Shown here: piece after piece, positions 1-15,384 of the stretch
Layout: every line of letters begins with the position of its first letter
Numbering within the stretch: position 1 is the first letter of the stretch
NCBI GenBank assembly: GCA_003153585.1
Contig: PLZZ01000059.1
Span: 15,579-32,260, forward strand
Reading direction: 5' to 3'
Origin: Acidobacteriota bacterium
GTDB taxonomy: Bacteria; Acidobacteriota; Terriglobia; Acidiferrales; UBA7541
Length of the DNA: 16,682 bases
The notes under the pieces: model-generated
Seen by the model: the letters and a program-made list of their open reading frames with translations, nothing else
Database searches by the model: none
Told to the model about the DNA's origin: nothing
Made by a program: the position numbers and the translations under genes

Positions 1-498
1 GAGCCTCTTGTGCTACCGGAGTTCGACGAATATCAGGGGGAAGCAGTGCTCAAACACTGCCTGCCCGGGTTGCTCGAAAACGACCAGAAAGTCCGAGATC
101 TCCATGCCTCGTTTCAGTCTTCTGCCGGCTCTGCCGAAAAACGCGCGACTTTTCAAAAGTTGTTCGAAGCTGTCATTGGCGAGTGGGTGCGCGGCGAGAT
201 CTCTCCGCCAGGCGTAGAGACCTGGTCGGAGTTTTGCTCCAGGGTTAATTCCGGTCTCGTAAAGTTTCTCTCTGCCGGGGTACGCGGTGAACGAGTTGCC
301 ATTTTTACTTCCGGCGGTCCGATCGCAGTTGCCATGCAGCGTGCTATGCATCTCTCTGCGGAAAGGGCCTTGCAAGTGAGTTGGATGTCGCGCAACTCCT
401 CTTGGAGTGAATTTCTCTACTCCGCCCAGCGGTTCACACTCAGCTCTTTCAATGTCCACGGGCATCTCAACGATCCCGCGATGATGACGTACCGCTAG
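1..498 (+). CDS. Histidine phosphatase family protein, C-terminal part (5' end off window)
   Basis: The reading frame is already open at base 1, so the N-terminal half, which would hold the RHG catalytic motif, lies outside the window. What remains is 165 codons ending in TAG. It has an acidic stretch near its start (PEFDEYQGE) and a late strand-turn motif FTSGGPIAVA at 304-333, the position where this superfamily normally has its second catalytic histidine (xHGG). Here that residue is serine (TCC, 310-312). Family members remove phosphate from sugar phosphates, nucleotides or other small molecules; the substrate here is unknown. The next gene, a kinase, begins 8 bases after the stop, so the two are probably co-transcribed and may act on the same metabolite. 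The family call rests on overall pattern and context. The internal GTG at base 10 is probably not the start. Confidence 0.7.
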   Translation, partial: EPLVLPEFDEYQGEAVLKHCLPGLLENDQKVRDLHASFQSSAGSAEKRATFQKLFEAVIGEWVRGEISPPGVETWSEFCSRVNSGLVKFLSAGVRGERVAIFTSGGPIAVAMQRAMHLSAERALQVSWMSRNSSWSEFLYSAQRFTLSSFNVHGHLNDPAMMTYR

Positions 499-506
499 GG
501 CTTCCC

Positions 507-1574
507 ATGAGCGACTTTCTGGACCATCCGACAGCCATTCGATCCGGCGAAGAACTTGATTTGGGACGCCTCGAACCCTTCTTGGGCCGTCACTTTCCCA
601 ACGAAGAAGGTGCGCTTCAAGTTCACCAATTTCCCAGCGGCCATTCCAATTTGACTTATTCATTGCATCTTGGCGCCAAGGAGTTGGTTCTTCGGCGGCC
701 TCCCTTCGGAAGCAAGGTCAAATCGGCACACGATATGAGCCGCGAATTTCGCGTGCTCTCTAAGCTCCACTCCGTCTACGCCCCGGCTCCCGAAGTGCTT
801 CTCTATTGTGACGACGCTTCCGTCATCGGCGCACCGTTCTACGTGATGCAACCGATCCACGGCATCATTCTTCGCAGACAGTTGCCGCCCGGTTTGGATT
901 TTCCTCCGGAAACGGCGCGGCGGCTCAGCGAATCCTTCATCGAAAATCTCATACGCCTGCACCGCGTGGATTACGCCGGCGCGGGTCTTTCCGATCTGGG
1001 TAAGCCGGAGGGATATCTGGAACGGCAGGTCCGTGGCTGGACCGAGCGCTACTCCGGTTCCAGGACACACGATTATCCCGAGGTGGAAAAAATTTCCGCG
1101 TGGATGCAGCAACACATGCCGTCCACAACCGCCGTTTCGCTGATTCACAATGACTACAAATACGACAACGTAGTCCTCGATTCGAGCGACATCACGAAAA
1201 TTGTCGGCGTGCTCGATTGGGAGATGTCCACTATCGGTGACTCTCTCTCAGACCTCGGCGCTGTACTGGCTTATTGGATCGATGCGAAGGACCCTGAGGA
1301 GCTGGAACAAAATCGCTGGGGACCCACGAACTATCCGGGCAGCTTCACGCGCGAAGAAATTGTGCAGTATTACGCCCAAAAAACGGGCCGCGATGTATCT
1401 CAGATGCCTTTCTATCTCACCTTCGCCCGTTTCAAACTTGCCGTCATCGTCCAGCAAATTTATTATCGCTATCACCAAGGCTTTACCAAAGACGAACGCT
1501 TTGCAGCCATGCCCGAAAGAATTCAGATACTTTTGCGTGCCTCTTTGCACTGCGCGCAAACCGGCCGAATTTAG
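507..1574 (+). CDS. Phosphotransferase family protein (ACAD10/11- and LvaA-like acyl-CoA kinase)
   Basis: This is a 355-residue protein with the aminoglycoside-phosphotransferase/choline-kinase fold. The Brenner motif is HNDYKYDN at residues 214-221 (catalytic Asp216, metal-binding Asn221), followed by the metal-binding LDWE at 236-239 and the family signature STIGDSLSDL at 241-250. The N lobe has LVLRRPPFG at 60-68 and a conserved REF (Arg79-Glu80-Phe81). The order and wording of these motifs match my recollection of the kinase domain of animal ACAD11 and of LvaA from levulinate catabolism, which phosphorylates the 4-hydroxyl of 4-hydroxyacyl-CoA. The ATG follows AGGG (497-500), which overlaps the stop of the upstream phosphatase gene. 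The gene runs tail to tail into a - strand operon that carries an ACAD11-like dehydrogenase, supporting a shared pathway. Kinase fold: very likely. Acyl-CoA substrate: inference. Confidence 0.92.
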   Translation: MSDFLDHPTAIRSGEELDLGRLEPFLGRHFPNEEGALQVHQFPSGHSNLTYSLHLGAKELVLRRPPFGSKVKSAHDMSREFRVLSKLHSVYAPAPEVLLYCDDASVIGAPFYVMQPIHGIILRRQLPPGLDFPPETARRLSESFIENLIRLHRVDYAGAGLSDLGKPEGYLERQVRGWTERYSGSRTHDYPEVEKISAWMQQHMPSTTAVSLIHNDYKYDNVVLDSSDITKIVGVLDWEMSTIGDSLSDLGAVLAYWIDAKDPEELEQNRWGPTNYPGSFTREEIVQYYAQKTGRDVSQMPFYLTFARFKLAVIVQQIYYRYHQGFTKDERFAAMPERIQILLRASLHCAQTGRI

Positions 1575-1622
1575 GGCATCGCTCGGGTAAGCTTTCCAAA
1601 TCTGCACTCAAATAAGAGTTAA

Positions 1623-2087
1623 TCAGGTGTAGTAGCGGACGATCCACTCCGCAACGCAGACTGGTTTTGCAGATCCTTCGTTTTCTATGATTACGGAATA
1701 CGTCGCTTCAGCCGCATCGGAGAGTTCTTTTAAATCCAAGAGCGCAATCCGCGCACGAATCCTGGAATCGGCCCGCACCGCCGCAGGAAATCGCACACGA
1801 TTCAAACCGTAATTCACCGCCAATCGCACGCCGCCCTGGACTTGAATCGCCTCCTTCATAAGGTGGCTGAGCAAAGAGAGCGTAAGAAACCCGTGAGCGA
1901 TCGTGTCGCCGTAAGGTGACTCCTTGCTCGCCCGCGCGCGATCCAGATGAATCCATTGCCGGTCTTCCGTAGCTTCCGCGAACTTCTCGATCCGCTCCTG
2001 CGTAACGAGAAACCACTCCGTAACGCCAACTTCCCTGCCCACGAATTCTTTCAACGATTGCGGATTTTTGATCACGAGCGGCGGCAT
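1623..2087 (-). CDS. MaoC family dehydratase ((R)-specific enoyl-CoA hydratase type)
   Basis: This hot-dog-fold protein of 154 residues hydrates trans-2-enoyl-CoA to a 3-hydroxyacyl-CoA or runs the reverse reaction. The hydratase motif is visible at residues 42-51 (Asp42, His47, Asp49), followed by YGDTIAHGFLTLSL at 59-72, typical of single-domain MaoC proteins. I chose the ATG at 2087 because it overlaps the dehydrogenase stop as TGATG and has a purine-rich GAGAGAAG directly upstream. The open frame extends 10 codons further up to 2117, but that would overlap the dehydrogenase gene by 31 bases and lacks a better ribosome site. It is the last gene of the operon hydratase - dehydrogenase - MaoC, and translational coupling to the dehydrogenase is likely. 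It could handle the enoyl-CoA made by that enzyme. Confidence 0.9.
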   Translation of the reverse strand: MPPLVIKNPQSLKEFVGREVGVTEWFLVTQERIEKFAEATEDRQWIHLDRARASKESPYGDTIAHGFLTLSLLSHLMKEAIQVQGGVRLAVNYGLNRVRFPAAVRADSRIRARIALLDLKELSDAAEATYSVIIENEGSAKPVCVAEWIVRYYT

Positions 2088-3292
2088 CAACTTCTCTCGG
2101 CTTTCGCCAACTCCCACTTTGCAATCGACTCGATATGTACTTCATCCGGTCCGTCTGCCAACCGCAGCGTCCGAGCCATAGCCCAAGCGCTAGCCAGAAA
2201 CGTGTCCTGCGAAAGTCCGGCCGCTCCATGCGCCTGCATTGCCCGATCCAGCACACGCAGAGCCACGTTAGGCGCTACAACTTTGATCATCGCAATCTCG
2301 GCCCGTGCTGCTTTGTTGCCTACCGTGTCCATCATGTGCGCGGCCTTCAGCGTCAGCAGCCGCGCCTGTTCGATCTCCATGCGCGACTCGGCGATTCCCG
2401 CGCGAATCGTTCCCTGTTCGGCTAGCGCCTTCCCGAAGGCCACCCTCATTTGCACCCGTTTGCACATGGTTTCGAGCGCCCGCTCCGCGAGCCCGATACA
2501 TCGCATGCAATGATGAATCCGCCCAGGCCCCAGACGCCCTTGCGCAATCTCAAATCCGCGCCCTTCGCCAAGCAACATGTTTGTCGCTGGCACGCGCACT
2601 TTTTCAAAGTGAATTTCAGCGTGCCCGTGCGGCGCGTGGTCGTATCCGAATACTGTTAACATCCGCACGATCTTGACTCCGGGCGTATCGAGCGGCACGA
2701 GGATCATCGACTGCTGCTTGTGCGGCGGCGCGGAAGGATCGCTCTTGCCCATGAATATCGCGATCTTGCATCGCGGATCGCCTGCTCCTGAGGACCACCA
2801 CTTCCGCCCGTTAATCACGTACTCATCGCCGTCTCGTACGATGCCCGATGCAATGTTGGTGGCATCCGACGAGGCAACATCCGGTTCGGACATGGAGAAG
2901 CAGGATCGAATTTCGCCGGCCAGCAGCGGCTTTAGCCATTTTTCTTTTTGTTCTGCCGTACCATAACGCGCCAGCACCTCCATATTCCCGGTATCCGGCG
3001 CTGAACAATTGAACACCTCGGGCGCCATGTGACTGCGCCCCATGATTTCGCAAAGCGGCGCGTACTCCAGGTTGGTCAGGCCCGCGCCGTTTTCATCGTG
3101 CGGCAAAAACAAATTCCACAATCCCTCTTGGCGCGCCTTCGGCTTCAGTTCTTCCACGATCCGCGCGGGTTTCCAGCGTTCCCGCTCAATTTCTTCGTGG
3201 AATCGCTGTTCGTTTGGATACACGTGGACGTCCATGAAGCTTTGTAGCCGCCGCTGCAGCTCCTTCGTCTTTGCGCTGGGTTCAAAGTCCAT
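2087..3292 (-). CDS. Acyl-CoA dehydrogenase family protein, ACAD10/11 (LvaC)-like
   Basis: This 401-residue flavoprotein is of full length for the family. The diagnostic stretches are [13 protein letters not shown] (95-107), [17 protein letters not shown] (130-146, FAD/substrate binding), [16 protein letters not shown] (158-173), [11 protein letters not shown] and [10 protein letters not shown] near the C terminus, where Glu384 is the candidate catalytic base. From memory these are nearly identical to the dehydrogenase domain of animal ACAD11 rather than to ordinary short- or medium-chain enzymes. That branch and bacterial LvaC process phosphorylated 4-hydroxyacyl-CoA, eliminating phosphate, instead of, or as well as, simple 2,3-dehydrogenation. 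The gene lies 16 bases after the enoyl-CoA hydratase gene and overlaps the MaoC gene. A matching kinase gene converges on this operon. Family: near certain. Substrate: inference. Confidence 0.95.
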
Positions 3293-3308
3293 AGGTCAAA
3301 GGTCTCTT

Positions 3309-4139
3309 CTATTTGCCGGTGAAGACCGGAGCGCGTTTTTCGACAAAGTGCGCCACGCCTTCTTTGAAGTCTTCGCACTGCAGGCTGGCCAGCATTTCTC
3401 GCTCGGAGATTTCAAAAGCTTCCGCCAGAGTCAGAAACATCGCGTCGTACACTTGCCGCTTGATCACGCGCAGCGACCGCGGGCTCACGTTCGAGGCCAG
3501 GTCCACTGCGTACTCCCGCACCTTCGCATGAAACGCATCCTGCGGAAAGACTTGATTCACCAGTCCCATTCGCAGAGCCTCCGCCGCATCAATCATCCTC
3601 GCGGAAAATAGCAAGTCCAGTGCGTTGGCGTGTCCCACCAGACGCGGTAACATCCACGCCATTCCGTATTCGGCAATCAGTCCTCGACGCGCAAAAGCCG
3701 TTCCAAAACGCGCACCGTCGGAAGCAAAACGTAAATCGCAGTACAAAGCAATCACTAATCCCAAACCGACGATGGGACCATTGATGGCCGCAATCACGGG
3801 CTTTGTGACCGCCGGGAAATATGAATATTTTTTCTGAAAATCCGCTCTTGTGCCTTCGACAGTGCCGCCCTGAGGTTGCACCGCTTGGGCTCGTTGCGCG
3901 GAATCGAGTCCCTTCGTCGCGACCGTGGACAAGAGCGATATATCTGCGCCCGCGCAGAATCCTCGTCCCGCGCCCGTCAAGATGATCACGCGAACATTTT
4001 CGTCACGTTCCGCGTCTCTCACCGCGGCTTTTACTTCGCCTTCCATAACGGCGGTCCAGGCGTTCAGTTTATCTGGACGGTTGAGAGTGATCGTCGCGAC
4101 CCGGTCGGCTACGTTGTACAGCGTTTCTTGGTTTGGCAT
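3309..4139 (-). CDS. Enoyl-CoA hydratase/isomerase (crotonase) family protein
   Basis: This crotonase-fold enzyme of 276 residues has the first oxyanion-hole segment GAGRGFCAGADIS at 56-68 and the second INGPIVGLGL at 119-128. Glu147 in RRGLIAEYGMAW (141-152) sits where hydratases carry a catalytic acid/base; the Glu of the other canonical position is not obvious. It should add water to, or shift the double bond of, enoyl-CoA esters in beta-oxidation. I start it at ATG 4139. A TTG at 4160 would add seven residues (MYIIRPT) but falls inside promoter-like sequence. No Shine-Dalgarno is present before ATG 4139, and a TATAAT box sits 10 bases upstream, so the mRNA may be leaderless. It is the first gene of the dehydrogenase/MaoC operon. 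Confidence 0.92.
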   Translation of the reverse strand: MPNQETLYNVADRVATITLNRPDKLNAWTAVMEGEVKAAVRDAERDENVRVIILTGAGRGFCAGADISLLSTVATKGLDSAQRAQAVQPQGGTVEGTRADFQKKYSYFPAVTKPVIAAINGPIVGLGLVIALYCDLRFASDGARFGTAFARRGLIAEYGMAWMLPRLVGHANALDLLFSARMIDAAEALRMGLVNQVFPQDAFHAKVREYAVDLASNVSPRSLRVIKRQVYDAMFLTLAEAFEISEREMLASLQCEDFKEGVAHFVEKRAPVFTGK

Positions 4140-4161
4140 AGTGGGCCGGATTATATACAAT
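4133..4161 (+). promoter_or_regulatory. Candidate sigma70-type promoter of the alpha/beta hydrolase gene
   Basis: TTGGCA (4133-4138, 5 of 6 matches) and TACAAT (4156-4161, 5 of 6) are separated by the ideal 17 bases. The -10 box directly abuts the -10 box of the opposing promoter, and the -35 box overlaps the hydratase start codon. The predicted leader to ATG 4262 is about 94 bases and contains an inverted repeat, ACTTC/GAAGT, at 4211-4226. Confidence 0.5.
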
Positions 4162-4261: not shown

Positions 4262-5080
4262 ATGCCCTTCGTGCAAAATCAAGGTGCCAAAATATATTGG
4301 GATGAACAGGGTTCCGGCGAACCTCTATTGCTCATCATGGGCCTCAGCTACCCCTCCTACATGTGGCATCGCACCCGCCCTGTTCTTGCAAATCGTTATC
4401 GCACCATCGCTCTCGATAATCGCGGCGTGGGCCAAAGTGATGTGCCGCCAGGCGTTTACTCCATCGCATTGATGGCCTCGGATGCAGCATCTGTTCTGGA
4501 TGCAGCGGGCGTCGGGAGCGCGCACGTGTTCGGCGTTTCCATGGGCGGCATGATTGCGCAGGAATTTGCGCTTCAATATCCGAAGCGTGTGCGTTCGCTG
4601 ATTCTGGGTTGCACCGCGTTTGGCGGTCCGCATGCAATTCAAGCCGAGCCCGCGGCACTCCAAACTCTCATGCGTCAGGGCATGACTCCTGAAGAAGCCA
4701 AAGAGGCCATCATCCCGTTCATTTATGACGTGACTACTCCGCGCGAACGCATCGACGAAGACATGGCCATCCGCATGAAGTGGTATCCCACTCCGCAAGG
4801 GTACATGTCCCAACTTCAAGGGATTATCGCCTGGGAAGCCTACAGCCGCATCGCGCAAATCACGGCTCCCACGCTAGTCATTCACGGCGAAACCGACAGG
4901 CTCGTTCCAGCCGCGAACTCGCGGCTAATCGCCGACCGTTTACCTCACGCCAAACTCGTGCTGCTCCCGCACGCAAGCCACATTTTCGAGACCGACCAGC
5001 CCGGCGCGGCACATCAAGCAATTGTAGATTTTCTCGCCGCTCAGAATGGCGGTGCGCAGCGCTCTCAGGCTACTAACTAG
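4262..5080 (+). CDS. Alpha/beta fold hydrolase
   Basis: The 272-residue protein has a full alpha/beta-hydrolase catalytic set: the nucleophile elbow GVSMGG with Ser93, an acid at Asp212 in HGETDRLVP, and His240 in PHASHIFE. The oxyanion region MGLSYPSYMW is at 26-35, and LDNRGVGQSD (51-60) is the usual motif after strand 4. It has no signal peptide, so it is probably cytoplasmic. It most resembles esterase/lyase-type small hydrolases; the substrate cannot be told from sequence. GGAGG at 4253-4257 lies four bases before the ATG. It is divergent from the beta-oxidation-like operon and could be a thioesterase or ester hydrolase of the same pathway, but that is a guess. Its TAG stop shares the palindrome CTAG with the stop of the convergent patatin gene. 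Confidence 0.93.
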   Translation: MPFVQNQGAKIYWDEQGSGEPLLLIMGLSYPSYMWHRTRPVLANRYRTIALDNRGVGQSDVPPGVYSIALMASDAASVLDAAGVGSAHVFGVSMGGMIAQEFALQYPKRVRSLILGCTAFGGPHAIQAEPAALQTLMRQGMTPEEAKEAIIPFIYDVTTPRERIDEDMAIRMKWYPTPQGYMSQLQGIIAWEAYSRIAQITAPTLVIHGETDRLVPAANSRLIADRLPHAKLVLLPHASHIFETDQPGAAHQAIVDFLAAQNGGAQRSQATN

Positions 5081-8000
5081 CTTGCCTTCTGGCCGCCAGT
5101 AGTCAGCCTCGAAACGTCAAAACCGAACTTCTCCAGCTCGATTTTCAATTGCCCATCTAACGCCCCATTTGTAGGCGTCGCTGCTCCGGTTGGCAAAGTC
5201 GCAGCCGCTTCCCCTAACATCGAGCTCATCACTTCGTGATAGCCCAGCTCTCGGTAGCTTTCAAATTGCGATTCCGTAAACCATTGATCCACCGTCGTTT
5301 CGTGCGGAAACTGTGGATGCATCGTATGATAATTTTTAATATCGGTGGACTCGTCACCCGTCAGGGACGCTTTGAAATAAATAATTGTTCCGGTGGGCGC
5401 GGATTTGTCCACCGCCTCGTAATGGATTGTCCCTATTGCGCAATGCTTCTTGCTGGGCTTTCCTAATTTCGGCGGCACGATATCGCTGATGTTCAGTTGG
5501 ATATCGATCCCCAGATCGATTCGGCATTTCCGTATAGCGTTTCCCAACCCCGTGAATCCATAGCAGTCGTCCGCCTCCGCATCGCACACAATTATCAGCC
5601 CGCACCGCCGCTTCACCAGCTCGTACAATCCCATGTTTTCAAAATGTCCGCCGTCAGACAGGTACACGTATGCGGCTTCATCATCCGTACCTGCGAACAG
5701 CTCATTCAGCAGGTACGTCAATCCAAAGATTGGTGTCGCCCGTCTCGACGTTCGCCGGTCTCGGGGATTTCCGAGCCATTGTCCCAGACGCACATCGAAT
5801 AACGTCATTAGAAACGCTACTGGGGCCGAGCTGTAAGATCCCATGTTCGGACTTGCCGCCGCCCCCGAAATCCCCATCGCCAGCCCCAAATTCGGTCCAT
5901 TGAATGGCGGTGGAAACGCGTATTCTTCCGTTCGACGATATCCATAACGTTCGAGCGGTCGTAACAATCTCCGCAATACGCTATGCGCCTCTTCGGCTTC
6001 GCGTTTTTCCACTTCCTCTTTCGTGAGCGGCCTCTGTTGCCGCATCATTGGGCTGTCCTGTTCCTCAAGCCACACATCGAATCCGCAATATCGCGGCGTC
6101 ATGACGAACGATTCCGCCATCCGCTCCTGCCACGCCAAATCTTTTCCCTTAACCAGATTCAGAGACATATTCAGCACCGGGTACGGTCCGTCGTACGGAA
6201 TTTCTGCGTCTACCCTCAAGTCTTTGAGCGGCATGTCATCAGTCCCGTCGAATCCTGTAAATCGGTTCGGCGAACGTCCCTCGTTTGAGGCCCCCAAATA
6301 GCACCTCACCAGGCGGTTTCGATAAAACAAATGCATCGAGAATTGGTTGACGTCCACCCGCCACGCCATAATCCCCGCCACCGCCGCACACAACAAGATC
6401 GCCCACCAGAGCCGGTGCGTGCTGATGCTGGGGTATTCGCTAAACAGATCCAGTTGCTGCACTCTTGCGATCCCGTATGAAAGCCAACACAACAGCCCCG
6501 CGATAAATGCGTACGGGCCCACTTTCGCAACTCCGTCCTTCCACGTCTCCGTTCCCGTTATCCCCGACGCACTTGACTTCCCCGCGAGCACGCCTCCCAC
6601 TGTCGTCAGGATCCACGCCGGCGTCAGATACTTTGCCGCCAGACTCTTCACGAATGCGTTATTCGAAATGAATCCCGGAAAATAGAGCGCGACCCAGAAA
6701 ATCGCCAGCCATACGATTCCCCACAGCAACAGCCATCCTCCCAATCGTCCCCACCATTCCCGGGCTCGGTCGTGAAACACGGTCCCCATCAGTCCAATGT
6801 GCAGTGTTCCCGCGAGCAGGAAGATTCCCAGCACCAGCGGCACGCCCGCCGTTAGCGCCGCCTGTGTCGTCCAACAGAGTGTCTTCTCCGACAGCAGAGC
6901 GTACAGCCATCCCGCCAGTGCGCCAGCGCCCGCCGCTCCGATTAGCGTGATCGTGAAATCACGCGCCGATCGCAACTTTGCATAAAACCGGTCCGCCGCC
7001 GACTTTGTATTGTTCTCTGCAGGCGGTGCCTTTGCCTGGGCTCGAGCATGTCCGGCCAAATCGGCCATCTCTTCAGCGATCTTCGATACAAATGGCGCCA
7101 GCCAGCGCCTGTAAGCGAATCCTGCGGCGCTTGCTGCTACCCATATCGCGCTGTAAGCAATCGCGCCGTAAAGTGTCGATTCAGCGTACGGCAAATGGTT
7201 CTCGTGACTTCCTCCTCCGATTTGAGAGAACCTCGCCACTTGCCAGAGCGCCCCGAGAACCGCCACCGCAAATAGTGGTCCGGCTGCCAGTGCCAAAATC
7301 CAACTCTGTTTCGTCATTTGTCGCGCGCCGCCATCGTCGCGGCAATCCAGGTATGCCATATTGTTTAGGATTATCAGAAATGCGGTTATCAGCAGGACTA
7401 TCCCGGCATACATCCAGGTGCGCCCGATTTCTGGATTCCACTCCGCCGCCAGTCCCCATTTCTCTGCCAGGCGCGGAAGTAGCAGGAGCGCCGTCAGCAC
7501 AGCGAGCACGATCGTCTGATTCAGCAGCAAGTTCCGCAGATAAATCGCCACCATTGCCAAAGTGTCGCCGCTAAAAATTCCCAGCTTGGGCGTCAAGTAG
7601 TTGCTGAACACCCGTAAAAACCGGATCGGAGGCGGCTCTTTGTCGTCTATCTGGTGCACACGGTTTGTCGCCAGCCGTTTTTGTACCTCCCCAAAACTTT
7701 CTAGCCGCTTCGTCCACGCCGCCAGCCATCCTCCAATGTATCCCCCGCCGGACACTGTCGAGAGATAGTCGATACGGTGCAGCAGCTTCAACTCCGCCAA
7801 GGCCTGTAGCACGCCCAGGTTGAAGGTTGCGCTACGGATCCCTCCCCCCGAAAACGCCAATCCCGTCAGGTTCGCAGCATGAGCTTTGTTGACTACATTG
7901 ACCCAATTGACGTTGTCCTTCTGCCATGCCGGTTCGGCGGCATCGGCCTTTCCCGCGATCGGCGCTACCGGTGAAACCGCGGCATCACGCGGTTTACCCG

Positions 8001-8103
8001 TTTTCCCAGACGTCCCCCTCATTTCCCGCACTTTCTCAATTTCCTGCCGCTCATCGTCCAGAACAACCTCGAGGGCAACAGGCGGGAACGGGTCTTTGGA
8101 CAT
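5077..8103 (-). CDS. Patatin-like phospholipase with an inserted multi-helix membrane domain
   Basis: This is a 1008-residue protein. The patatin lipase half-sites are far apart. The N-terminal part carries the oxyanion motif SGGGIR (85-90) and the nucleophile segment STVSGGGYIGG (Ser118; T-x-S-x-G rather than G-x-S-x-G). The dyad aspartate is Asp817 in YLSDGGHFENMG. Between them, about residues 188-582, lie nine or ten hydrophobic helices (roughly 190-210, 230-250, 268-288, 311-330, 383-403, 416-436, 455-475, 494-507, 528-547, 564-582). The protein should therefore be an integral inner-membrane acyl hydrolase acting on lipid acyl esters. Similar large patatins occur in bacteria, with unknown physiological substrates. 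The first 60 residues are charged and probably disordered. GAGG lies nine bases before the ATG. The gene stands alone, divergent from greA. Confidence 0.9.
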   Translation of the reverse strand: MSKDPFPPVALEVVLDDERQEIEKVREMRGTSGKTGKPRDAAVSPVAPIAGKADAAEPAWQKDNVNWVNVVNKAHAANLTGLAFSGGGIRSATFNLGVLQALAELKLLHRIDYLSTVSGGGYIGGWLAAWTKRLESFGEVQKRLATNRVHQIDDKEPPPIRFLRVFSNYLTPKLGIFSGDTLAMVAIYLRNLLLNQTIVLAVLTALLLLPRLAEKWGLAAEWNPEIGRTWMYAGIVLLITAFLIILNNMAYLDCRDDGGARQMTKQSWILALAAGPLFAVAVLGALWQVARFSQIGGGSHENHLPYAESTLYGAIAYSAIWVAASAAGFAYRRWLAPFVSKIAEEMADLAGHARAQAKAPPAENNTKSAADRFYAKLRSARDFTITLIGAAGAGALAGWLYALLSEKTLCWTTQAALTAGVPLVLGIFLLAGTLHIGLMGTVFHDRAREWWGRLGGWLLLWGIVWLAIFWVALYFPGFISNNAFVKSLAAKYLTPAWILTTVGGVLAGKSSASGITGTETWKDGVAKVGPYAFIAGLLCWLSYGIARVQQLDLFSEYPSISTHRLWWAILLCAAVAGIMAWRVDVNQFSMHLFYRNRLVRCYLGASNEGRSPNRFTGFDGTDDMPLKDLRVDAEIPYDGPYPVLNMSLNLVKGKDLAWQERMAESFVMTPRYCGFDVWLEEQDSPMMRQQRPLTKEEVEKREAEEAHSVLRRLLRPLERYGYRRTEEYAFPPPFNGPNLGLAMGISGAAASPNMGSYSSAPVAFLMTLFDVRLGQWLGNPRDRRTSRRATPIFGLTYLLNELFAGTDDEAAYVYLSDGGHFENMGLYELVKRRCGLIIVCDAEADDCYGFTGLGNAIRKCRIDLGIDIQLNISDIVPPKLGKPSKKHCAIGTIHYEAVDKSAPTGTIIYFKASLTGDESTDIKNYHTMHPQFPHETTVDQWFTESQFESYRELGYHEVMSSMLGEAAATLPTGAATPTNGALDGQLKIELEKFGFDVSRLTTGGQKAS

Positions 8104-8169
8104 TAGATTTAGCCTCGCTTAGCAGCTTTTCTTGATTCAATCGACCGAATGCACGGAGAACCAGCCGGG

Positions 8170-8199
8170 AGGGTATTTCGCGTGCAAATTAACTGTCAA
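8170..8199 (-). promoter_or_regulatory. Candidate promoter of the patatin-like gene
   Basis: On the - strand a perfect TTGACA (complement of 8194-8199) precedes TACCCT (complement of 8170-8175) by 18 bases. The -10 box matches only at its three most conserved positions. The predicted leader to ATG 8103 is about 60 bases. Confidence 0.4.
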
Positions 8200-8266
8200 G
8201 TAAAAATTTCCCATTATCTGGCCGCTTCGCTCGCGGGCGCATATGCTTTCAACTAACCCCCGGCAT

Positions 8267-8296
8267 TTGCGGTTCCCCGCGCAAATCCTCTATAAT
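8267..8296 (+). promoter_or_regulatory. Candidate greA promoter
   Basis: A perfect TATAAT box at 8291-8296 lies 18 bases after a weak -35 (TTGCGG, 8267-8272). Transcription would start near 8302-8304, giving a leader of about 64 bases to the greA ATG. A perfect inverted repeat covers the predicted start point. Confidence 0.55.
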
Positions 8297-8297
8297 C

Positions 8298-8313
8298 TTT
8301 GGGTAATCCCAAA
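8298..8313. promoter_or_regulatory. Inverted repeat TTTGGG-TAAT-CCCAAA at the greA start point, possible operator
   Basis: Six-base perfect arms flank a four-base centre, one base after the TATAAT box. Because the dyad spans the expected transcription start, only part of it would be in the RNA, so a protein-binding operator is more likely than an RNA hairpin. No regulator is identified. Confidence 0.4.
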
Positions 8314-8324
8314 AAACACGACAC

Positions 8325-8352
8325 GAGGGCATCCCTTCATTATCTTGCCCTC
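8325..8352 (+). promoter_or_regulatory. Leader stem-loop in greA mRNA
   Basis: GAGGGCA (8325-8331) pairs with TGCCCTC (8346-8352), giving a 7-bp stem with a 14-base loop. The only SD-like GAGGG in the leader is inside the stem and 37 bases from the ATG. The sequence right before the ATG (AACTTGCCAAA) has no Shine-Dalgarno. Confidence 0.4.
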
Positions 8353-8366
8353 TCAAACTTGCCAAA

Positions 8367-8846
8367 ATGATTGATCTCGCTGAGAAAATTAAGAAGAAAC
8401 TAAAGGACGAAATCGCCGCCCTCGAGCACGAACTTCACGATGAGCTGCCCAAGGAAATCAAGGTAGCTCGCGCTCACGGCGACCTTTCCGAAAACGCTGA
8501 GTACAAGTACGCCAAGGAACGCCAGTCCTACGTCTCCGCCCGGCTCGGCCAGCTTCACCAGCGCATGGCCGACATTTCCATGATGAACCTAACCAACTTG
8601 CCAAAAGACCGCGCCGCTTATGGCTCCCGCATCGTCGTTCTCGACGTTGCGAAGTCCACCGAAATCGAGTACAAACTGGTGACGGTGGAAGAAGCCGACG
8701 TAACCAAGGGCCTCATTTCGACGAGTTCGCCCATCGGCAAGGCACTTCTTGGCAAAAAGCCCGGCGATGAGGTTACGGTTGTTACGCCGGCTGGTACCAG
8801 GGAATACGAAGTCGTTCGTCTGTCAACAATTTACGATGAGGAATAG
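8367..8846 (+). CDS. greA: Transcription elongation factor GreA
   Basis: The 159-residue length is normal for GreA/GreB. The N-terminal domain is a coiled coil whose tip bears GDLSENAEYKYAKERQ (38-53); Asp39 and Glu42 match the acidic residues that reach into the RNA polymerase secondary channel and coordinate the metal for cleavage of backtracked RNA. The C-terminal FKBP-like domain follows, with SSPIGKALLGKKPGDEV and a closing YEVVRLSTIYDE. It rescues stalled or backtracked polymerase in the cytoplasm. I call it GreA rather than GreB on the ISTSSPIGKALLGKKPGDEV style and on being the only copy seen. ATG 8367 fits the family N terminus, although no Shine-Dalgarno lies before it. It is the first gene of a tight three-gene cluster with two membrane protein genes. 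Confidence 0.96.
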   Translation: MIDLAEKIKKKLKDEIAALEHELHDELPKEIKVARAHGDLSENAEYKYAKERQSYVSARLGQLHQRMADISMMNLTNLPKDRAAYGSRIVVLDVAKSTEIEYKLVTVEEADVTKGLISTSSPIGKALLGKKPGDEVTVVTPAGTREYEVVRLSTIYDEE

Positions 8847-8864
8847 CATGGTGGCACTGAATCA

Positions 8865-9581
8865 ATGTTGACGCGCACCATCGGTCGTTACCTTTCCTGG
8901 CCCATCGACCGGCTGGCAGCGCTCCTCGCTCCGACCGGAATTCCTCCCAACGTCATCACCTGGCTGGCTCTTGTTTTGAATCTCTGGGCCGGCATACTTT
9001 TCGCTGCAGGCCGCTTCGCGGCTGGTGGCGGAATGATGATCCTAGCCGGCCTCTGCGACTTGCTCGACGGCCCAGTAGCCCGGCGGCAAAAACGCGTCTC
9101 GCTGTTCGGCGGCTTTCTGGATTCAATTCTTGACCGTTACGCAGACCTCATCCTCTTCCTCGGAATCTTGGTTTACTACGCGCGAGTGAATCGTTTCATG
9201 TACGCCGTCCTGGCGGGTGCCGCCATGGCTGGCGCCGTAATGGTAAGCTACGCAAAGGCGCGCGCGGAATCCTTGGTACCAAAGTCCGAAGTAGGATTTT
9301 GGGATCGGCCCGAGCGCCTCACGCTCATGATTCTCGGCGCGCTCGTCAACCGCATGCCCATTGCACTGTGGATCCTTGCCATTGGACCCAACTTCACCGT
9401 GATCCACCGCATTCTGCACACATGGAAACAAACGAAAGATGGCCCACTCCCGCTCGCTGGGAGCGAATCCTCTGCCGGTACAACATCTCCGCGTACAAAA
9501 TCCCGCGCTACTATTCCGGCTCCTGTTCAGCCGCGCGACGCCTCATCTCTTCTCACCCGCGCAGCCAAACGCGGAGGCTAG
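8865..9581 (+). CDS. CDP-alcohol phosphatidyltransferase family protein
   Basis: This 238-residue membrane enzyme transfers a phosphatidyl group from a CDP-linked lipid to an alcohol. The complete family signature is present: D65-x2-D68-G-x2-A72-R73-x8-G82-x3-D86-x3-D90, the aspartates that hold the catalytic metals. About five or six hydrophobic helices are visible (near 30-50, 52-67, 92-106, 110-130, 150-175). FWDRPERLTLMILG (145-158) resembles inositol-phosphate or glycerol-phosphate transferases, but the acceptor alcohol cannot be fixed from sequence. The last 40 residues are a Ser/Thr/Pro/Arg-rich tail, probably disordered. The gene starts 18 bases after greA with only a weak GGTGG ribosome site, and the next gene begins two bases after its stop, so the three are likely one transcript. 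Confidence 0.93.
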   Translation: MLTRTIGRYLSWPIDRLAALLAPTGIPPNVITWLALVLNLWAGILFAAGRFAAGGGMMILAGLCDLLDGPVARRQKRVSLFGGFLDSILDRYADLILFLGILVYYARVNRFMYAVLAGAAMAGAVMVSYAKARAESLVPKSEVGFWDRPERLTLMILGALVNRMPIALWILAIGPNFTVIHRILHTWKQTKDGPLPLAGSESSAGTTSPRTKSRATIPAPVQPRDASSLLTRAAKRGG

Positions 9582-9583
9582 TC

Positions 9584-9868
9584 GTGCCCAAGCTTCTGTG
9601 GATTATCGGCATCCTGGTCATCTGCGCGGGATTCGATCTGCTCTGGCAATCGCGTCACGAAATAAAGTTTTGGCTCGTCGCTTATCTGGCGGTTTTCCGC
9701 GCGATGCTTCGCCAGCAGGAATCTCCGATGCGCGTTTTTCCGGCGAAAGAAGCCGCCGCCAAGCGCCACGGAGCTGTCCGCTTTCTCCTCGGCATCGGCT
9801 TCGCGTTTCTTCTGGGGCCTATCCTGATCGCTCTCGGCATTACGCTTATGCTGCATCCTCACCTCTGA
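9584..9868 (+). CDS. Small membrane protein of unknown function, GTG start
   Basis: This 94-residue protein begins with GTG at 9584, two bases after the preceding stop and seven bases after GGAGG (9573-9577). The open frame extends further upstream, but that part only shadows the phosphatidyltransferase gene. Two hydrophobic helices are visible: LLWIIGILVICAGFDLLW at about 4-21 and FLLGIGFAFLLGPILIALGI at about 67-86. The loop between them is basic and polar (residues 22-66). I do not recognise a family. Close coupling to the phosphatidyltransferase suggests a membrane-lipid or accessory role, which is only inferred from position. Confidence 0.7.
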   Translation: MPKLLWIIGILVICAGFDLLWQSRHEIKFWLVAYLAVFRAMLRQQESPMRVFPAKEAAAKRHGAVRFLLGIGFAFLLGPILIALGITLMLHPHL

Positions 9869-9870
9869 AT

Positions 9871-9898
9871 CGGGCCGCCCCGCTGCAGGCCCGCTTTC
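9871..9898 (+). terminator. Weak terminator-like hairpin after the greA cluster
   Basis: CGGGCC (9871-9876) pairs with GGCCCG (9888-9893) around an 11-base loop, two bases after the small membrane protein's stop. Only CTTTC follows, so a strong intrinsic terminator is doubtful. Confidence 0.35.
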
Positions 9899-9957
9899 GT
9901 AAGTTTGCGTATTGCGCAACGCCTCCGGCGAACGCGTGCGAATTCCCGTCCGTACTG

Positions 9958-9963
9958 TATGAT
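9958..9963 (+). promoter_or_regulatory. Possible -10 box (TATGAT) of the asparaginase-like gene
   Basis: TATGAT (9958-9963) matches the consensus at 5 of 6 positions and would place the start near 9970, leaving about 17 bases of leader before the TTG start codon. No good -35 box is visible 16-18 bases upstream. Confidence 0.25.
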
Positions 9964-9986
9964 TTCATTTCACGGCCGATTCAAAC

Positions 9987-10919
9987 TTGAAACCTTCTCT
10001 GATCATTCACGGTGGCGCATGGAATATTCCCGATGAAGCAGTCGAGAGCTGCCGCGCGGGAATCCGCCGCGCTCTTGAAGCCGGCTGGAAGGTTTTGTCC
10101 GGCGCCGGCACGGCGCTGGATGCAGTCGAAGCCGTTATCGTAATCCTCGAGGACGATCCCACGTTTGACGCGGGTTTCGGCTCGCATCTGAATCGTGATG
10201 GCCACGTTCAACTCGACGCGATCATTATGAACGGCGCGACCCTGAAAGCCGGCGCCATCGCCGCCGTGGAGCGCGTGCGAAATCCAATCCGTCTGGCGCG
10301 CTGCGTCCTCGAAAAAAGTGAACACATGATGCTTGTGGGCTCCGGCGCGGAAAAATTCGCCCTGGAACACGATATGCCTCTGTGCGCGCCCGAAGATCTC
10401 GTGAACGAGCGCGAACGTGCCGCCTGGCGCCGGTGCCTGGAAGATTCGCACGCCGCCGAACACCATGTTGGCCACGAGCAAGGCACCGTCGGCGCCGTCG
10501 CTATTGATCGCCATGGAAATCTTGCAGCGGGCACCTCCACTGGCGGCACTTGCTGTAAATTTCCGGGACGCGTGGGCGATTCTCCGCTCATCGGCTGCGG
10601 CTGTTATGCCGACGCCGAAGCCGGCGGCGTTTCCTGCACCGGCCACGGTGAAGGCATCATGAAAATTGTGATGGCGAAAATGGCCATCGACCTTCTTCAC
10701 GACCAGCGTGTCCTGTTGCCTCACAGGGAAAAAGGCGTCCCGATCTCCCTGGCGCAAGCCGTTGCTGATGCCTGTATCCGCAAACTGGCGCATAGGGCGC
10801 ACACCACCGGCGGCCTGATTCTTCTTGACCGCGATGGCCTCCCGGCCGCCGCATTCAACACCCCCCGCATGGCGTACGGCTACGTGGAACCCGACGCCAC
10901 TTTTCGAATCGCCCCGTAG
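9987..10919 (+). CDS. Isoaspartyl peptidase/L-asparaginase (Ntn hydrolase, type 2)
   Basis: This 310-residue protein is of normal precursor length. It opens with LIIHGGAW (5-12), the family hallmark. The autocleavage site is QGTVGAVA, where Thr167 becomes the N-terminal nucleophile of the beta subunit. Substrate residues follow: TSTGG (183-187), GRVGDSP with Arg195 and Asp198, and TGHGE (218-222). The enzyme should cleave beta-aspartyl dipeptides and/or asparagine in the cytoplasm after self-processing into alpha and beta chains. The start is TTG at 9987: the only in-frame codon between an upstream stop (9960) and the conserved motif that could serve. No Shine-Dalgarno is visible. It follows the greA cluster after a weak hairpin and is probably transcribed separately. 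Confidence 0.93.
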   Translation: MKPSLIIHGGAWNIPDEAVESCRAGIRRALEAGWKVLSGAGTALDAVEAVIVILEDDPTFDAGFGSHLNRDGHVQLDAIIMNGATLKAGAIAAVERVRNPIRLARCVLEKSEHMMLVGSGAEKFALEHDMPLCAPEDLVNERERAAWRRCLEDSHAAEHHVGHEQGTVGAVAIDRHGNLAAGTSTGGTCCKFPGRVGDSPLIGCGCYADAEAGGVSCTGHGEGIMKIVMAKMAIDLLHDQRVLLPHREKGVPISLAQAVADACIRKLAHRAHTTGGLILLDRDGLPAAAFNTPRMAYGYVEPDATFRIAP

Positions 10920-12380: not shown

Positions 12381-12403
12381 TGGAAGGCCGGTTCGTCTAA
12401 GAG

Positions 12404-12433
12404 TTGAACCGAAAGCACGCCGTGTGCTAGCAT
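12404..12433 (+). promoter_or_regulatory. Candidate promoter of the EF-G-like gene, with overlapping dyads
   Basis: TTGAAC (12404-12409) and TAGCAT (12428-12433) are 18 bases apart, matching the consensus at 4 of 6 positions each. Two dyads overlap it: CGGTTC (12389-12394) with GAACCG (12406-12411), and AGCAC with GTGCT (12414-12428). The predicted start near 12440 leaves a leader of about 215 bases. Confidence 0.35.
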
Positions 12434-12460
12434 CCCACTTTTCCGCAGGGTCATGCGCGT

Positions 12461-12497
12461 CAACCGACGGGGGCGGCGCCGTGATGGTTGTCTTTTT
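12461..12497 (+). terminator. Terminator-like hairpin in the leader of the EF-G-like gene
   Basis: CAACC (12461-12465) pairs with GGTTG (12486-12490), and ACGG (12467-12470) with CCGT (12479-12482), around a GC-rich loop. A TCTTTTT run follows at 12491-12497. It lies about 157 bases before the EF-G-like ATG and could end upstream transcription or act as an attenuator. The rest of 12362-12653 holds no convincing gene. Confidence 0.45.
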
Positions 12498-12653
12498 GCA
12501 AAGCTCGAATCTGTTTTCTGCAAGAACCCGCCACGAAATGCCTGTCCAGAGGGCTGACTCCGCGCTTTCGCTGCATATTCTCCAGCTTGCGCGCCCAAGA
12601 AAATTTCCGCCGCCGGTTTCCAGAAAGATGGATCCTTCTATGTGAGGTGATTT

Positions 12654-14789
12654 ATGAAATCGTACAACACCGAATGGATACGCAACGTTGGCATTGTCGG
12701 CCACGGCGACACGGGTAAAACCCAGCTCGTATCGTCGTTCTTGTTCGCCGCTGGGATGACGCCCCGCCTCGGCAAAGTGGCCGAGGGCTCAGCCACCACC
12801 GACTGGGACGAAGAAGAAATTGCGCGAAAAATTTCCATCAACACCGGCCTCGCATTCGCCGAATGGCAAGCGCCCGGACTGCCGGAAAAAGTAAAAATAA
12901 ATTTCCTCGATACGCCCGGCTACTCCACCTTCATCAACGAAACAAAATCCTCGCTCATCGCCGCCGACGCCTCGCTGATCGTGCTCGACGCTGCCGCTGG
13001 TGTCCAGGTCTGCACCGAAAGAGTTTGGGACTACGCCACCGAATACGATCAGCCTCGCGCATTCATCCTGAATTGGATGGACCGCGATCTCGCCAGCTTC
13101 GAGCGCGCACTGGATTCCATCCAGCATGTTTTTGGCCGTGGAGCCGTACCCATTCAATTGCCCATTGGACACGAAAGAGGTTTCAGAGGTGTTGTGGATT
13201 TAATCTCGATGAAAGCCCTCACCTACACGCCAGACGGCGATGGCAAAGCTAAAATAGAAGATATCCCCGCAGTTCTTGCCGAAGAAGCCAAGGCTGCGCA
13301 CGAAACGCTGGTTGAGTTGGTCGCGGAAGGCGATGACGCATTGATGCAGGAATTTTTCGACGAAGGCACCCTGCCCGTCGGTGATCTGAAGAAAGGCCTG
13401 CGCGAAGCCGTCCTGGCCAAAAGAATCTTTCCTGTCCTGCTCAGCTCCGCATTGCATAACGTCGGCAGCGACGCGATTCTGAATTTTCTGACCGAGATTT
13501 TCCCCGCGCCTGCCGTTCGCGGAAAAATCACCGGCCACAAGACCTCAGACCATAAAGGCGACCCCATCGAGCGCAAGATTGTGGATTCCGAGCCCACTTC
13601 GATTTTCGTTTTTAAGACGCTCGCCGATCCCTTCGCCGGCCGCATCACCTATTTCAAAGTCATGTCCGGGGTGTTGAAAAACGACGCTACGCTCAACAAC
13701 TTCAATCGCAGCACGCAGGAACGTCTTCAGCATATCCAGGTAATGCAGGGAAAAACGGCGACAGCGGTGAGCGACCTCCACGCGGGTGACATTGGTACGG
13801 TCGCCAAACTGAAGGACTCCACGACCGGTGAGACCCTGGGAGACAAGAACGCGCCGATTTTTTATCCTTGCGCGCGGATTCCCGAGCCGTCTATTACCTT
13901 CGCAGTCGAACCGAAGACGCGCGCCGACGAAGACCGCATAGGCGTCGCCATCCACAAGATTTTGGAGGAAGATCTCGCCTTGCGTTTTGCGCGCGATCCT
14001 CAAACAAAAGAATTCTTGCTGAGCGGCGCGGGGCAGCAGCATATCGAAGTAGTCGTCGCAAAATTGCGCAAGCGTTACCACGTCGAATTAAAACTCCATC
14101 CTCCGAAGGTCCCTTATCGCGAGACCATCCGCGGCAAAGCTGACGCCGAAGGCAAACACAAAAAACAAACCGGGGGCCACGGCCAGTTTGGCCTTTGCCG
14201 CATTAAGATGGAGCCGCTGCCGCGGGGCAAGGGCATTGAATTCGTGGACGATGTTTTCGGCGGCGCCATTCCCAAAAACTGGATTCCATCCGTCGAAAAA
14301 GGCGTTCGCGATTCCGCTGAGCGTGGGTTTCTTGCGGGTTTTCCTGTCACCGATATTCGCGTGAGCCTCTACGACGGCAAATATCACGACGTGGACTCCA
14401 GCGACATGGCCTTCAAGATTGCGGGCTCGCTCGCATTCAAGGAAGCCATGAAGCAGGCGCGCCCCGTCCTGCTCGAACCGATTATGCATGTCGAGGTCTA
14501 CGCGCCGGATCAGTATTCAGGCGATTTGATGGGCCATCTCAGCGGGCGTCGCGGAAAAATCAGTGGCAGCGAACTGCGAGGCGGAAGCGTCGTGGTCAAA
14601 GCCCTGGTTCCCTTCTCGGAAATGCTGAGTTATGCGAACGAGTTAATTTCAATGACGCAAGGACGCGGAAGCTACTCCATGGAATTTTCGCATTACGATT
14701 ATGTACCGGCAGAAATTGCGGAAAAAGTAATCGCCGCGCACAAACCGCATCACGCGGGCGAAGAAGAAAGCCAAGCTGCGTCAGCCTGA
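12654..14789 (+). CDS. Elongation factor G-like GTPase (EF-G2/FusA2-type)
   Basis: This 711-residue protein has EF-G length and domain order: a G domain, a beta-barrel domain 2 (about 300-400, with FKTLADPFAGRITYFKVMSG) and domains III-V, ending with the EF-G-type YAPDQYSGDLMGHLSGRRGKI and TQGRGSYSMEFSHYDYVP. The G motifs differ from true EF-G: the P-loop is GHGDTGKT (16-23) instead of AHxDAGKT; switch I reads ARKISI (57-62) in place of the RGITI type; switch II is DTPGYSTF (Tyr90 where EF-G has catalytic His); and G4 is NWMD (140-143) instead of NKMD. These point to a paralogous, EF-G2-like class, not the housekeeping translocase. AGGTGA lies just before ATG 12654. Its role at the ribosome is unknown; stress or ribosome rescue or recycling is possible. 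Confidence 0.92.
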   Translation: MKSYNTEWIRNVGIVGHGDTGKTQLVSSFLFAAGMTPRLGKVAEGSATTDWDEEEIARKISINTGLAFAEWQAPGLPEKVKINFLDTPGYSTFINETKSSLIAADASLIVLDAAAGVQVCTERVWDYATEYDQPRAFILNWMDRDLASFERALDSIQHVFGRGAVPIQLPIGHERGFRGVVDLISMKALTYTPDGDGKAKIEDIPAVLAEEAKAAHETLVELVAEGDDALMQEFFDEGTLPVGDLKKGLREAVLAKRIFPVLLSSALHNVGSDAILNFLTEIFPAPAVRGKITGHKTSDHKGDPIERKIVDSEPTSIFVFKTLADPFAGRITYFKVMSGVLKNDATLNNFNRSTQERLQHIQVMQGKTATAVSDLHAGDIGTVAKLKDSTTGETLGDKNAPIFYPCARIPEPSITFAVEPKTRADEDRIGVAIHKILEEDLALRFARDPQTKEFLLSGAGQQHIEVVVAKLRKRYHVELKLHPPKVPYRETIRGKADAEGKHKKQTGGHGQFGLCRIKMEPLPRGKGIEFVDDVFGGAIPKNWIPSVEKGVRDSAERGFLAGFPVTDIRVSLYDGKYHDVDSSDMAFKIAGSLAFKEAMKQARPVLLEPIMHVEVYAPDQYSGDLMGHLSGRRGKISGSELRGGSVVVKALVPFSEMLSYANELISMTQGRGSYSMEFSHYDYVPAEIAEKVIAAHKPHHAGEEESQAASA

Positions 14790-14817
14790 GACCGATATTT
14801 CAAAGCGACTGCAGTGA

Positions 14818-15063
14818 TTACTTCCCCGCTTCAGGCGCCGCTTGACCTGTCTGCGGGCTCTTGGCTTGCGCGTTGGCGCCCTGCGTCTTGGGGCCCTCAC
14901 CCTTCTTGTACTGACCGTTTTGGCCCACCGTGCGGGCCGGGCACCCCACGCCGAAACACGGACCCGTGGGTCGAAGATAGTAGCAACCCGTAAGTGACAG
15001 CATGGACGCGAGTAAGATCATCCCGCCCGCAAAAATCAGCATCCTTGCAACCTTCTTCTTCAT
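14818..15063 (-). CDS. Small putative lipoprotein
   Basis: This 81-residue protein has a basic start (MKKKVARM), a hydrophobic stretch (LIFAGGMILLASMLS) and a lipobox SLTGC with Cys27 as the predicted lipidation site, so it should be exported and anchored in a membrane. The mature 55 residues carry a CFGVGC pair (residues 36 and 41) and then a low-complexity, Gln/Gly/Ala/Lys/Pro-rich tail. No enzymatic domain is visible. The start is ATG 15063, supported by AGAGGG five bases upstream; the frame extends 23 codons further, but that would precede the signal sequence. It converges with the EF-G-like gene, leaving 28 bases between the two stops with no terminator seen. Confidence 0.75.
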   Translation of the reverse strand: MKKKVARMLIFAGGMILLASMLSLTGCYYLRPTGPCFGVGCPARTVGQNGQYKKGEGPKTQGANAQAKSPQTGQAAPEAGK

Positions 15064-15384
15064 AAGTGCCCTCTTTGAGAGGCTCGCAATAGTCAACGAA
15101 TCGCCTGGGACTCCATGCTCATATCTTGGCACAAATCCGGGAAGGCGTTCATGTTTCGGTGCGCATATGGCGCGAATCCGTTAGCGAACGAAAAGTGAAC
15201 CCATCACCGCGGGAAAAACTTCAGCGGCTCCCCGCTGCCAGGCAGATAAAAACCATAGTCTTCAGTTTTCAGCTTCACGAAAAACGCAGAAAGAAAAAGC
15301 TGGCGCGTCGCGCGTGCTCATCGCCCGGCGTGAACCAAATTGGCGCTTGCGATTTCCTCACAAACTGCGCAATCCTGCTGCGGC
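15064..15384. other. Non-coding interval between the lipoprotein and PLP-enzyme genes
   Basis: This interval of 321 bases separates two divergent genes and should hold both promoters, but I find no convincing -35/-10 pair for either. It includes a short dyad CCTCT-TTG-AGAGG (15070-15082) that overlaps the lipoprotein ribosome site, and TTGCG (15347-15351) facing CGCAA (15368-15372) just before the PLP-enzyme start. Open frames here look non-coding. Confidence 0.5.

Follow-up and report, generated by a model that had tools for sequence, protein, structure and literature searches.

The window analysed here is a stretch of 16,682 nucleotides from the genome of a soil bacterium of the Acidobacteriota (contig PLZZ01000059.1, positions 15579-32260; source genome bin of 3.28 Mb, 73.8% complete). 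It carries a kinase and an acyl-coenzyme A (CoA) dehydrogenase of the ACAD11 type, and directly before the kinase lies a gene for a histidine-phosphatase-like protein that has a serine at the position of the second catalytic histidine. The assignment of these genes to an ACAD10/11-type route for 4-hydroxy acids, in split form, is strong, as judged from homology. On balance, we favor the reading that the locus encodes this route and that the phosphatase-like protein binds either 4-phosphoacyl-CoA or the kinase itself and limits or adjusts the kinase step. The serine family is the new, testable point, and the gene cluster itself is a further member of a known pathway. The sequence-only reading of the window had described an ACAD10/11-like set of five genes in one locus (phosphatase, kinase, dehydrogenase, and two enoyl-CoA hydratases), and all five were confirmed in place, at the positions in Table 1.

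The phosphatase-like protein

PF00300 was the only Pfam match of the window's phosphatase-like protein, and no HAD-type domain was detected. The full-length homologues have mostly 239 residues. Among the close homologues, those that bear names are labelled Candidatus Acidoferrales/Acidiferrales. A homologue with 91% identity (P0004) gave no match at E 0.1 in a sequence search against the PDB; therefore, its fold was compared instead. The second model of P0004, with a predicted local distance difference test (pLDDT) score of 95.2, showed a branch-1 histidine phosphatase fold by structure comparison. The first model of this type, with 26 close homologues as input, reached a pLDDT of 59.8 and was not used. 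When its profile was aligned with that of seven ordinary members from Terriglobia (99.2%), Ser178 took the place of the second catalytic His, and Glu84 coincided with the conserved Glu. The second His belongs to the catalytic core of the histidine phosphatase superfamily; branch-1 members, such as PGAM5, PhoE, and SixA, have it, whereas the window family has Ser.

The serine was found in 119 of the 120 close homologues listed, from 1040 found, and the remaining one has Thr. Among these 120, His9 and Arg8 were kept in all 117 covering homologues, Arg54 in 119/119, and Glu84 in 119, with one Lys. We also inspected 80 kinase loci, the best 80 of at least 589, about one-third of them from Pseudomonas. 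The family was present in 37 of these loci, with Ser in all 37, and it spans Acidobacteriota, Planctomycetota, Thermodesulfobacteriota, Bacteroidota, Actinomycetota, and Pseudomonadota, among others, according to record title or tree label. The RH nucleophile motif, the second Arg, and the Glu were kept in 36/36 covering copies at the kinase loci and in 34/34 copies fetched from genomes of the window's class, all 34 of which have the Ser as well. As L013 and L123 seem to be one locus, the sets behind these residue counts overlap. The protein of the window itself shows the RH motif and the Glu; its second Arg lies inside a scaffold gap. Additionally, eight plasmid-borne relatives, including Deinococcus, were hand-picked among 46 records. 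All eight have Ser; the kinase is adjacent or one gene away in seven, and the eighth has no kinase in its stretch.

Two control sets of histidine phosphatases were examined. The first control comprised 13 genomes of the window's class, in which 25 PF00300 places corresponded to 23 proteins. His was present in all 21 non-family proteins; the other two belonged to the family, with the window's protein among them, and had Ser. The second control comprised six genomes of other groups with 40 matches in all; residues were read in the 30 matches that had a locus, which gave 28 proteins. Six were family members with Ser, and the 22 others comprised 20 with His, one with Ser (L241), and one with neither (L247). 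Pooled over both controls, the second His was kept in 41 of 43 non-family histidine phosphatases. The control residues were read by motif, and seven proteins of the first control were also read by profile alignment. In 13 shorter SixA-like controls, the profile alignment reached only the N-terminal part, and the His position there was read by motif. The loss of the second His elsewhere is rare but not unknown. L247 (G167:C2:322302-322841) is a Planctomycete histidine-phosphatase-like protein that seemingly lacks both catalytic His, with RP for RH.

The change from His to Ser points to a regulator or to an enzyme that has been altered, and the kept phosphate-binding residues together with the fixed Ser are more in line with binding or altered chemistry than with decay. 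We found no description of this change in the literature searched, whose coverage mostly excluded subscription papers.

The kinase and the dehydrogenase

Against the PDB, the kinase matched 9o56 with 384 bits, ACAD11 (8v3v) with 183 bits, and 3dxp with 171 bits, and the next chain down scored 45 bits. The identity to 8v3v was 34.5% (114/330). In its genome bin, the kinase was the only strong PF01636 match (160.6 bits versus 30.5 bits). An antibiotic or thiamine kinase was rejected due to best NCBIfam matches of at most 34.9 bits, far below the cut-offs. In the APH3-type loop, the catalytic residues Asp and Asn are kept (D216 and N221), and R79 and R173 were invariant in alignment A2. D216 aligns with D219 of the ACAD11 chain, taken as D220 in the available text of PMC12440821 under an inferred one-residue offset. 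The same text gives R86 and R176 as Arg residues that contact CoA, and R86 had no clean mapping in our kinase.

The dehydrogenase matched the ACAD11 structures 2wbi (489.9 bits), 8v3u (485.5 bits), and 8v3v (483.2 bits), as well as 4hr3 (471.8 bits), followed by a drop to 134.7 bits for 1ukw. We take 8v3u and 8v3v to be mouse ACAD11 and 2wbi to be human ACAD11. The identity to 8v3u was 57.7% (226/392). The HCMR motif and its upstream Arg are kept (R253 and H261-C-M-R264), and HHCMR was present in all ACAD11-profile matches of at least 372 bits. As a separate observation, Stutzerimonas has a second gene of the ACAD11 type, and no kinase lies beside it within 15 kb.

In the dehydrogenase tree (42 rows), the window and ACAD11 fell in one clade with support of 99/96, apart from the six dehydrogenases of the same genome that were used, as expected for an ACAD11-type enzyme. 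In the kinase tree (58 rows), four of the five distant APH rows lay outside the ACAD11-type group, whereas the very long row L211 sat on an open fork inside it, and the window and ACAD11 were in two neighboring clades of bacterial kinases.

Co-occurrence across genomes

The class survey covered 151 genomes of the window's class, to which the counts below refer. The thresholds were at least 230 bits for the kinase, E 1e-80 for the ACAD11-type gene, and at least 129 bits for the phosphatase-like gene. Nine kinase rows with at most 30.2 bits and all phosphatase rows with at most 48 bits, among them the N-terminal fragment of the window's phosphatase-like gene, were left out before counting.

The kinase was found in 28 genomes, the ACAD11-type gene in 29, and both in 28; the exception was an incomplete gene at the end of a contig. 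This pairing is not chance, as the ACAD11-type gene occurs in 28/28 kinase genomes. For the kinase and the phosphatase-like gene, 23 genomes had both, 5 the kinase only, 11 the phosphatase-like gene only, and 112 neither (Fisher p 2e-14, a raw tally that ignores kinship). Where both occurred, the phosphatase-like gene was at most 1.3 kb from the kinase in 19 genomes and elsewhere in 4.

The five kinase-only genomes all belong to the window's own family, where they make up 5 of the 12 kinase genomes. In the stretches fetched, all five keep the kinase, MaoC, the ACAD11-type gene, and a short-chain dehydrogenase/reductase (SDR) together, with the ligase in two and FadB in three. Five genomes without the phosphatase-like protein thus keep the gene set, and the protein is therefore probably an accessory that the pathway does not require.

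The phosphatase-like protein occurs in two subtypes, TSGG-like and TSATP-like. All 14 TSGG-like copies were in kinase-bearing genomes, and the 22 TSATP-like copies were divided evenly between places next to the kinase (11) and genomes that lack it (11). In two genomes (G106 and G112), one cluster holds both subtypes, on the two sides of an ACAD11-type gene (L130 7478-10126 and L131 5532-8146). In a Pseudomonas locus (L026, 8708-11845), the order is phosphatase-like gene, SCP-2 sterol-carrier protein, kinase, and SDR, with the ACAD11-type gene elsewhere in the genome. A similar spacing was seen in many other Pseudomonas loci, the check for SCP-2 covering L026.

DUF6285, which we take to be the family of LvaB, was found in 0 of the 151 class genomes. 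A DUF6285 gene adjoins a divergent kinase in L207, and a homologue is present in L206. These two Pseudomonas genomes hold a parallel cluster of divergent kinase, DUF6285 protein, acyl-CoA dehydrogenase, SDR, and ligase. A single-sequence profile of the L207 DUF6285 protein gave only a 15.5-bit, chance-level match in the other loci scanned.

Gene layout

Six Ns directly left of window base 1, a scaffold gap, interrupt the phosphatase-like gene. Its N-terminal piece, with the motif LVRHAQASF, lies left of these Ns; the N-terminus was assigned from the open reading frame and fits the family profile. MaoC, the ACAD11-type dehydrogenase, and the crotonase are on the strand opposite to the kinase. 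The sequence-only reading had seen two converging units here, and the convergent core of kinase and MaoC-ACAD11 was found in 12/12 stretches of the window's own family, the own locus included. The genes flanking this core differ with the stretch fetched. A fused kinase-dehydrogenase, suspected from an open frame of 852 residues, was rejected, as the two are in separate frames.

The absence of an acyl-CoA synthetase noted by the same reading holds inside the window; however, a CoA ligase lies further left, and the search on that side for a ligase or an SDR located both, 5 to 8 kb from the window. On the kinase strand, a LuxR-type regulator, a TetR regulator, an alcohol dehydrogenase, an outer-membrane protein, and an aquaporin come before the SDR, and two acyl-CoA dehydrogenases stand between the ligase and the FadB-like gene.

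Table 1. Features of the locus (window positions unless marked as contig; residues in PMC12440821 follow its available text)
Feature	Position	Strand	Basis or remark
Histidine-phosphatase-like protein, C-terminal 165 residues	1..498	+	PF00300 34.3 bits, cut-off 21.7; gene extends left across scaffold gap to contig 15481
Conserved Ser codon (P0004 residue 178) at second catalytic His position	310..312	+	Profile-profile alignment pairs Ser (FSSGG) with His (VTHGG)
LvaA/ACAD11-type kinase, APH fold	507..1574	+	PF01636 159.8 bits; starts 8 bases past phosphatase-like stop codon
Kinase catalytic loop HNDYKYDN (D216, N221)	1146..1169	+	Alignment with ACAD11 chain; invariant in alignment A2
MaoC-type dehydratase, likely enoyl-CoA hydratase	1623..2117	-	PF01575 75.1 bits; same position in relatives
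ACAD11/LvaC-type acyl-CoA dehydrogenase, predicted phospho-eliminating	2087..3292	-	PDB ACAD11 matches, 57.7% to 8v3u, tree
Dehydrogenase R253 and HCMR stretch (H261, R264)	2501..2536	-	R626, H634, R637 of PMC12440821, inferred one-residue offset
Dehydrogenase Asp380, predicted catalytic Asp of ACAD10/11 type	2153..2155	-	D753 of PMC12440821, inferred one-residue offset
Crotonase-type enoyl-CoA hydratase (PRK06210 equivalog)	3309..4160	-	NF004857 384.9 bits, cut-off 341
Alpha/beta hydrolase, possible lactonase/esterase	4262..5080	+	Abhydrolase_1 113 bits; 3-oxoadipate enol-lactonase model 140 bits, below cut-off 256
SDR	contig 7767-8576	same as kinase	Left of window
CoA ligase	contig 8594-10222	same as kinase	Left of window, after SDR
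FadB-like protein	contig 12397-13731	same as kinase	Left of window
Thiolase	contig 14268-15387	same as kinase	Frame broken by two Ns; precedes phosphatase-like gene and kinase

It is doubtful that the alpha/beta hydrolase belongs to the 4-hydroxy acid system. Next to the crotonase, a homologue was found in L121 and L013/L123, the latter two counting as one locus; the remaining stretches of the family, to the extent fetched, had none there. A Deinococcus cluster (L005, 3723-4811) has an SMP-30/gluconolactonase gene near the ACAD11-type gene, a hint of lactone substrates. Further right in the window, at 5077-8103, lies a patatin-domain protein of 1008 residues, of which the Pfam match covers only 76.

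Discussion

The split, un-fused form of an ACAD10/11-type route, proposed in the sequence-only reading, has good support from homology, residues, co-occurrence, and trees. In the proposed scheme, the CoA ligase would make the acyl-CoA, and the SDR may interconvert the 4-oxo and 4-hydroxy forms. The kinase would phosphorylate the 4-hydroxyl, and the ACAD11-type enzyme would eliminate the phosphate to give 2-enoyl-CoA, from which MaoC, crotonase, FadB, and thiolase could complete beta-oxidation. The substrate 4-hydroxyacyl-CoA is inferred from homologues. The phosphatase-like protein, with its phosphate-binding residues and a Ser for the second His, most likely binds 4-phosphoacyl-CoA or the kinase, and may restrain or tune the kinase step like the degenerate HAD domain in ACAD10.

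Split bacterial kinases and dehydrogenases are established, namely LvaA/LvaC and the bacterial orthologues that replace ACAD10 domains (PMC11342911 and PMC12440821, in their available parts, as for all papers cited here). The identity between LvaA and the kinase domains of ACAD10/11 is 29% (PMC11342911). The LvaABCDE levulinate operon of Pseudomonas putida KT2440 has, like our locus, separate genes for kinase, ACAD-type eliminase, SDR, and CoA ligase (PMC6692424, PMC12440821, PMC11342911). In contrast, the locus studied here has a histidine-phosphatase-like gene and no LvaB-like gene found, and further beta-oxidation genes stand in the same run. In animals, this enzyme set, fused as ACAD10/11, serves to degrade 4-hydroxy fatty acids. 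Animal ACAD11 shares the signature residues of kinase and dehydrogenase; however, it is fused in one chain and has no phosphatase-like part. ACAD10 has a phosphatase-like part with a lost catalytic residue beside the kinase, as here, but this part is fused and of the HAD fold, unrelated to the histidine phosphatase fold. In this HAD domain, a single Asp of the motif is left; its phosphatase activity is negligible, and it holds the kinase back (PMC11342911). The sequence-only reading drew a parallel between the two phosphatase parts; homology between them was rejected due to the different fold. We favor a phosphoacyl-CoA-binding pseudophosphatase or atypical phosphatase that would act at the kinase step, parallel to and not homologous with the HAD domain. 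A bolder version, which we offer tentatively and at less than even chances, is that a multi-phylum pseudoenzyme family, recognizable by its fixed change from His to Ser, arose as a dedicated sensor or regulator of the 4-hydroxyacyl-CoA kinase, convergent with ACAD10, so that an unrelated phosphatase fold would have been disarmed twice for the same kinase.

Several observations weigh against the favored reading. The family retains the His nucleophile, both Arg, and the Glu, residues that would be dispensable in a pure pseudoenzyme, and two non-family controls (L241 and L247) also lack the second His. The window kinase was not placed next to ACAD11 in the tree but in the neighboring clade. Moreover, TSATP-like copies occur without an A2-type kinase or an ACAD11-type gene in 11 of the 151 genomes (L136, L138, L140, L141, L144-L149, and L152), and that subtype would therefore have some other role.

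The kept residues would also suit an active but atypical phosphatase that clears dead-end phosphorylated acyl-CoAs or free phospho-acids as metabolite repair, with Ser or the substrate replacing the second His. The full branch-1 fold of the predicted structure and the accessory distribution agree with such a function, and removal of phosphate from 4-phosphovaleryl-CoA was proposed in 2019 for a histidine phosphatase that stands in place of LvaB in Pseudomonas citronellolis (PMC6692424). However, the second His, present in nearly all controls, occurs in none of the family members read, and we consider this explanation rather unlikely. The recycling of dead-end products by an ordinary phosphatase, suggested from the window sequence, is weakened because the family lacks this His.

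The P. citronellolis case also bears on a role as a required kinase partner in place of LvaB. LvaB is a small protein of P. putida that binds LvaA (Rand 2017 via PMC6692424), and the lva cluster of P. citronellolis LA18T has, like ours, a histidine phosphatase gene near the LvaA homologue and no LvaB. That phosphatase is known here by description and not by sequence; it was presented as a possible true phosphatase, and the available part of PMC6692424 does not mention a His-to-Ser change. The lack of DUF6285 throughout the class would fit such a replacement. Nevertheless, 5 of 28 kinase genomes have neither the phosphatase-like protein nor DUF6285, so the kinase seemingly needs neither, and a required partner is improbable. 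Finally, the modest identity of the kinase to the ACAD11 kinase domain and the differing gene settings among family members could point to another hydroxyacyl-CoA or lactone-derived substrate instead of 4-hydroxy fatty acids, but the complete HCMR, Arg, and Asp set of the dehydrogenase and the bacterial orthologues that stood in for ACAD10 parts in vitro on 4-hydroxyhexanoyl-CoA (PMC11342911) leave this little chance.

The biology of ACAD10/11 was worked out in 2024-2025. A bacterial partner with the same logic and another fold, if true, would offer a simple system for the control of 4-phosphoacyl-CoA build-up. It would also qualify the "histidine phosphatase" annotation for a widespread family, and would add a marker for soil bacteria that use 4-hydroxy acids and lactones.

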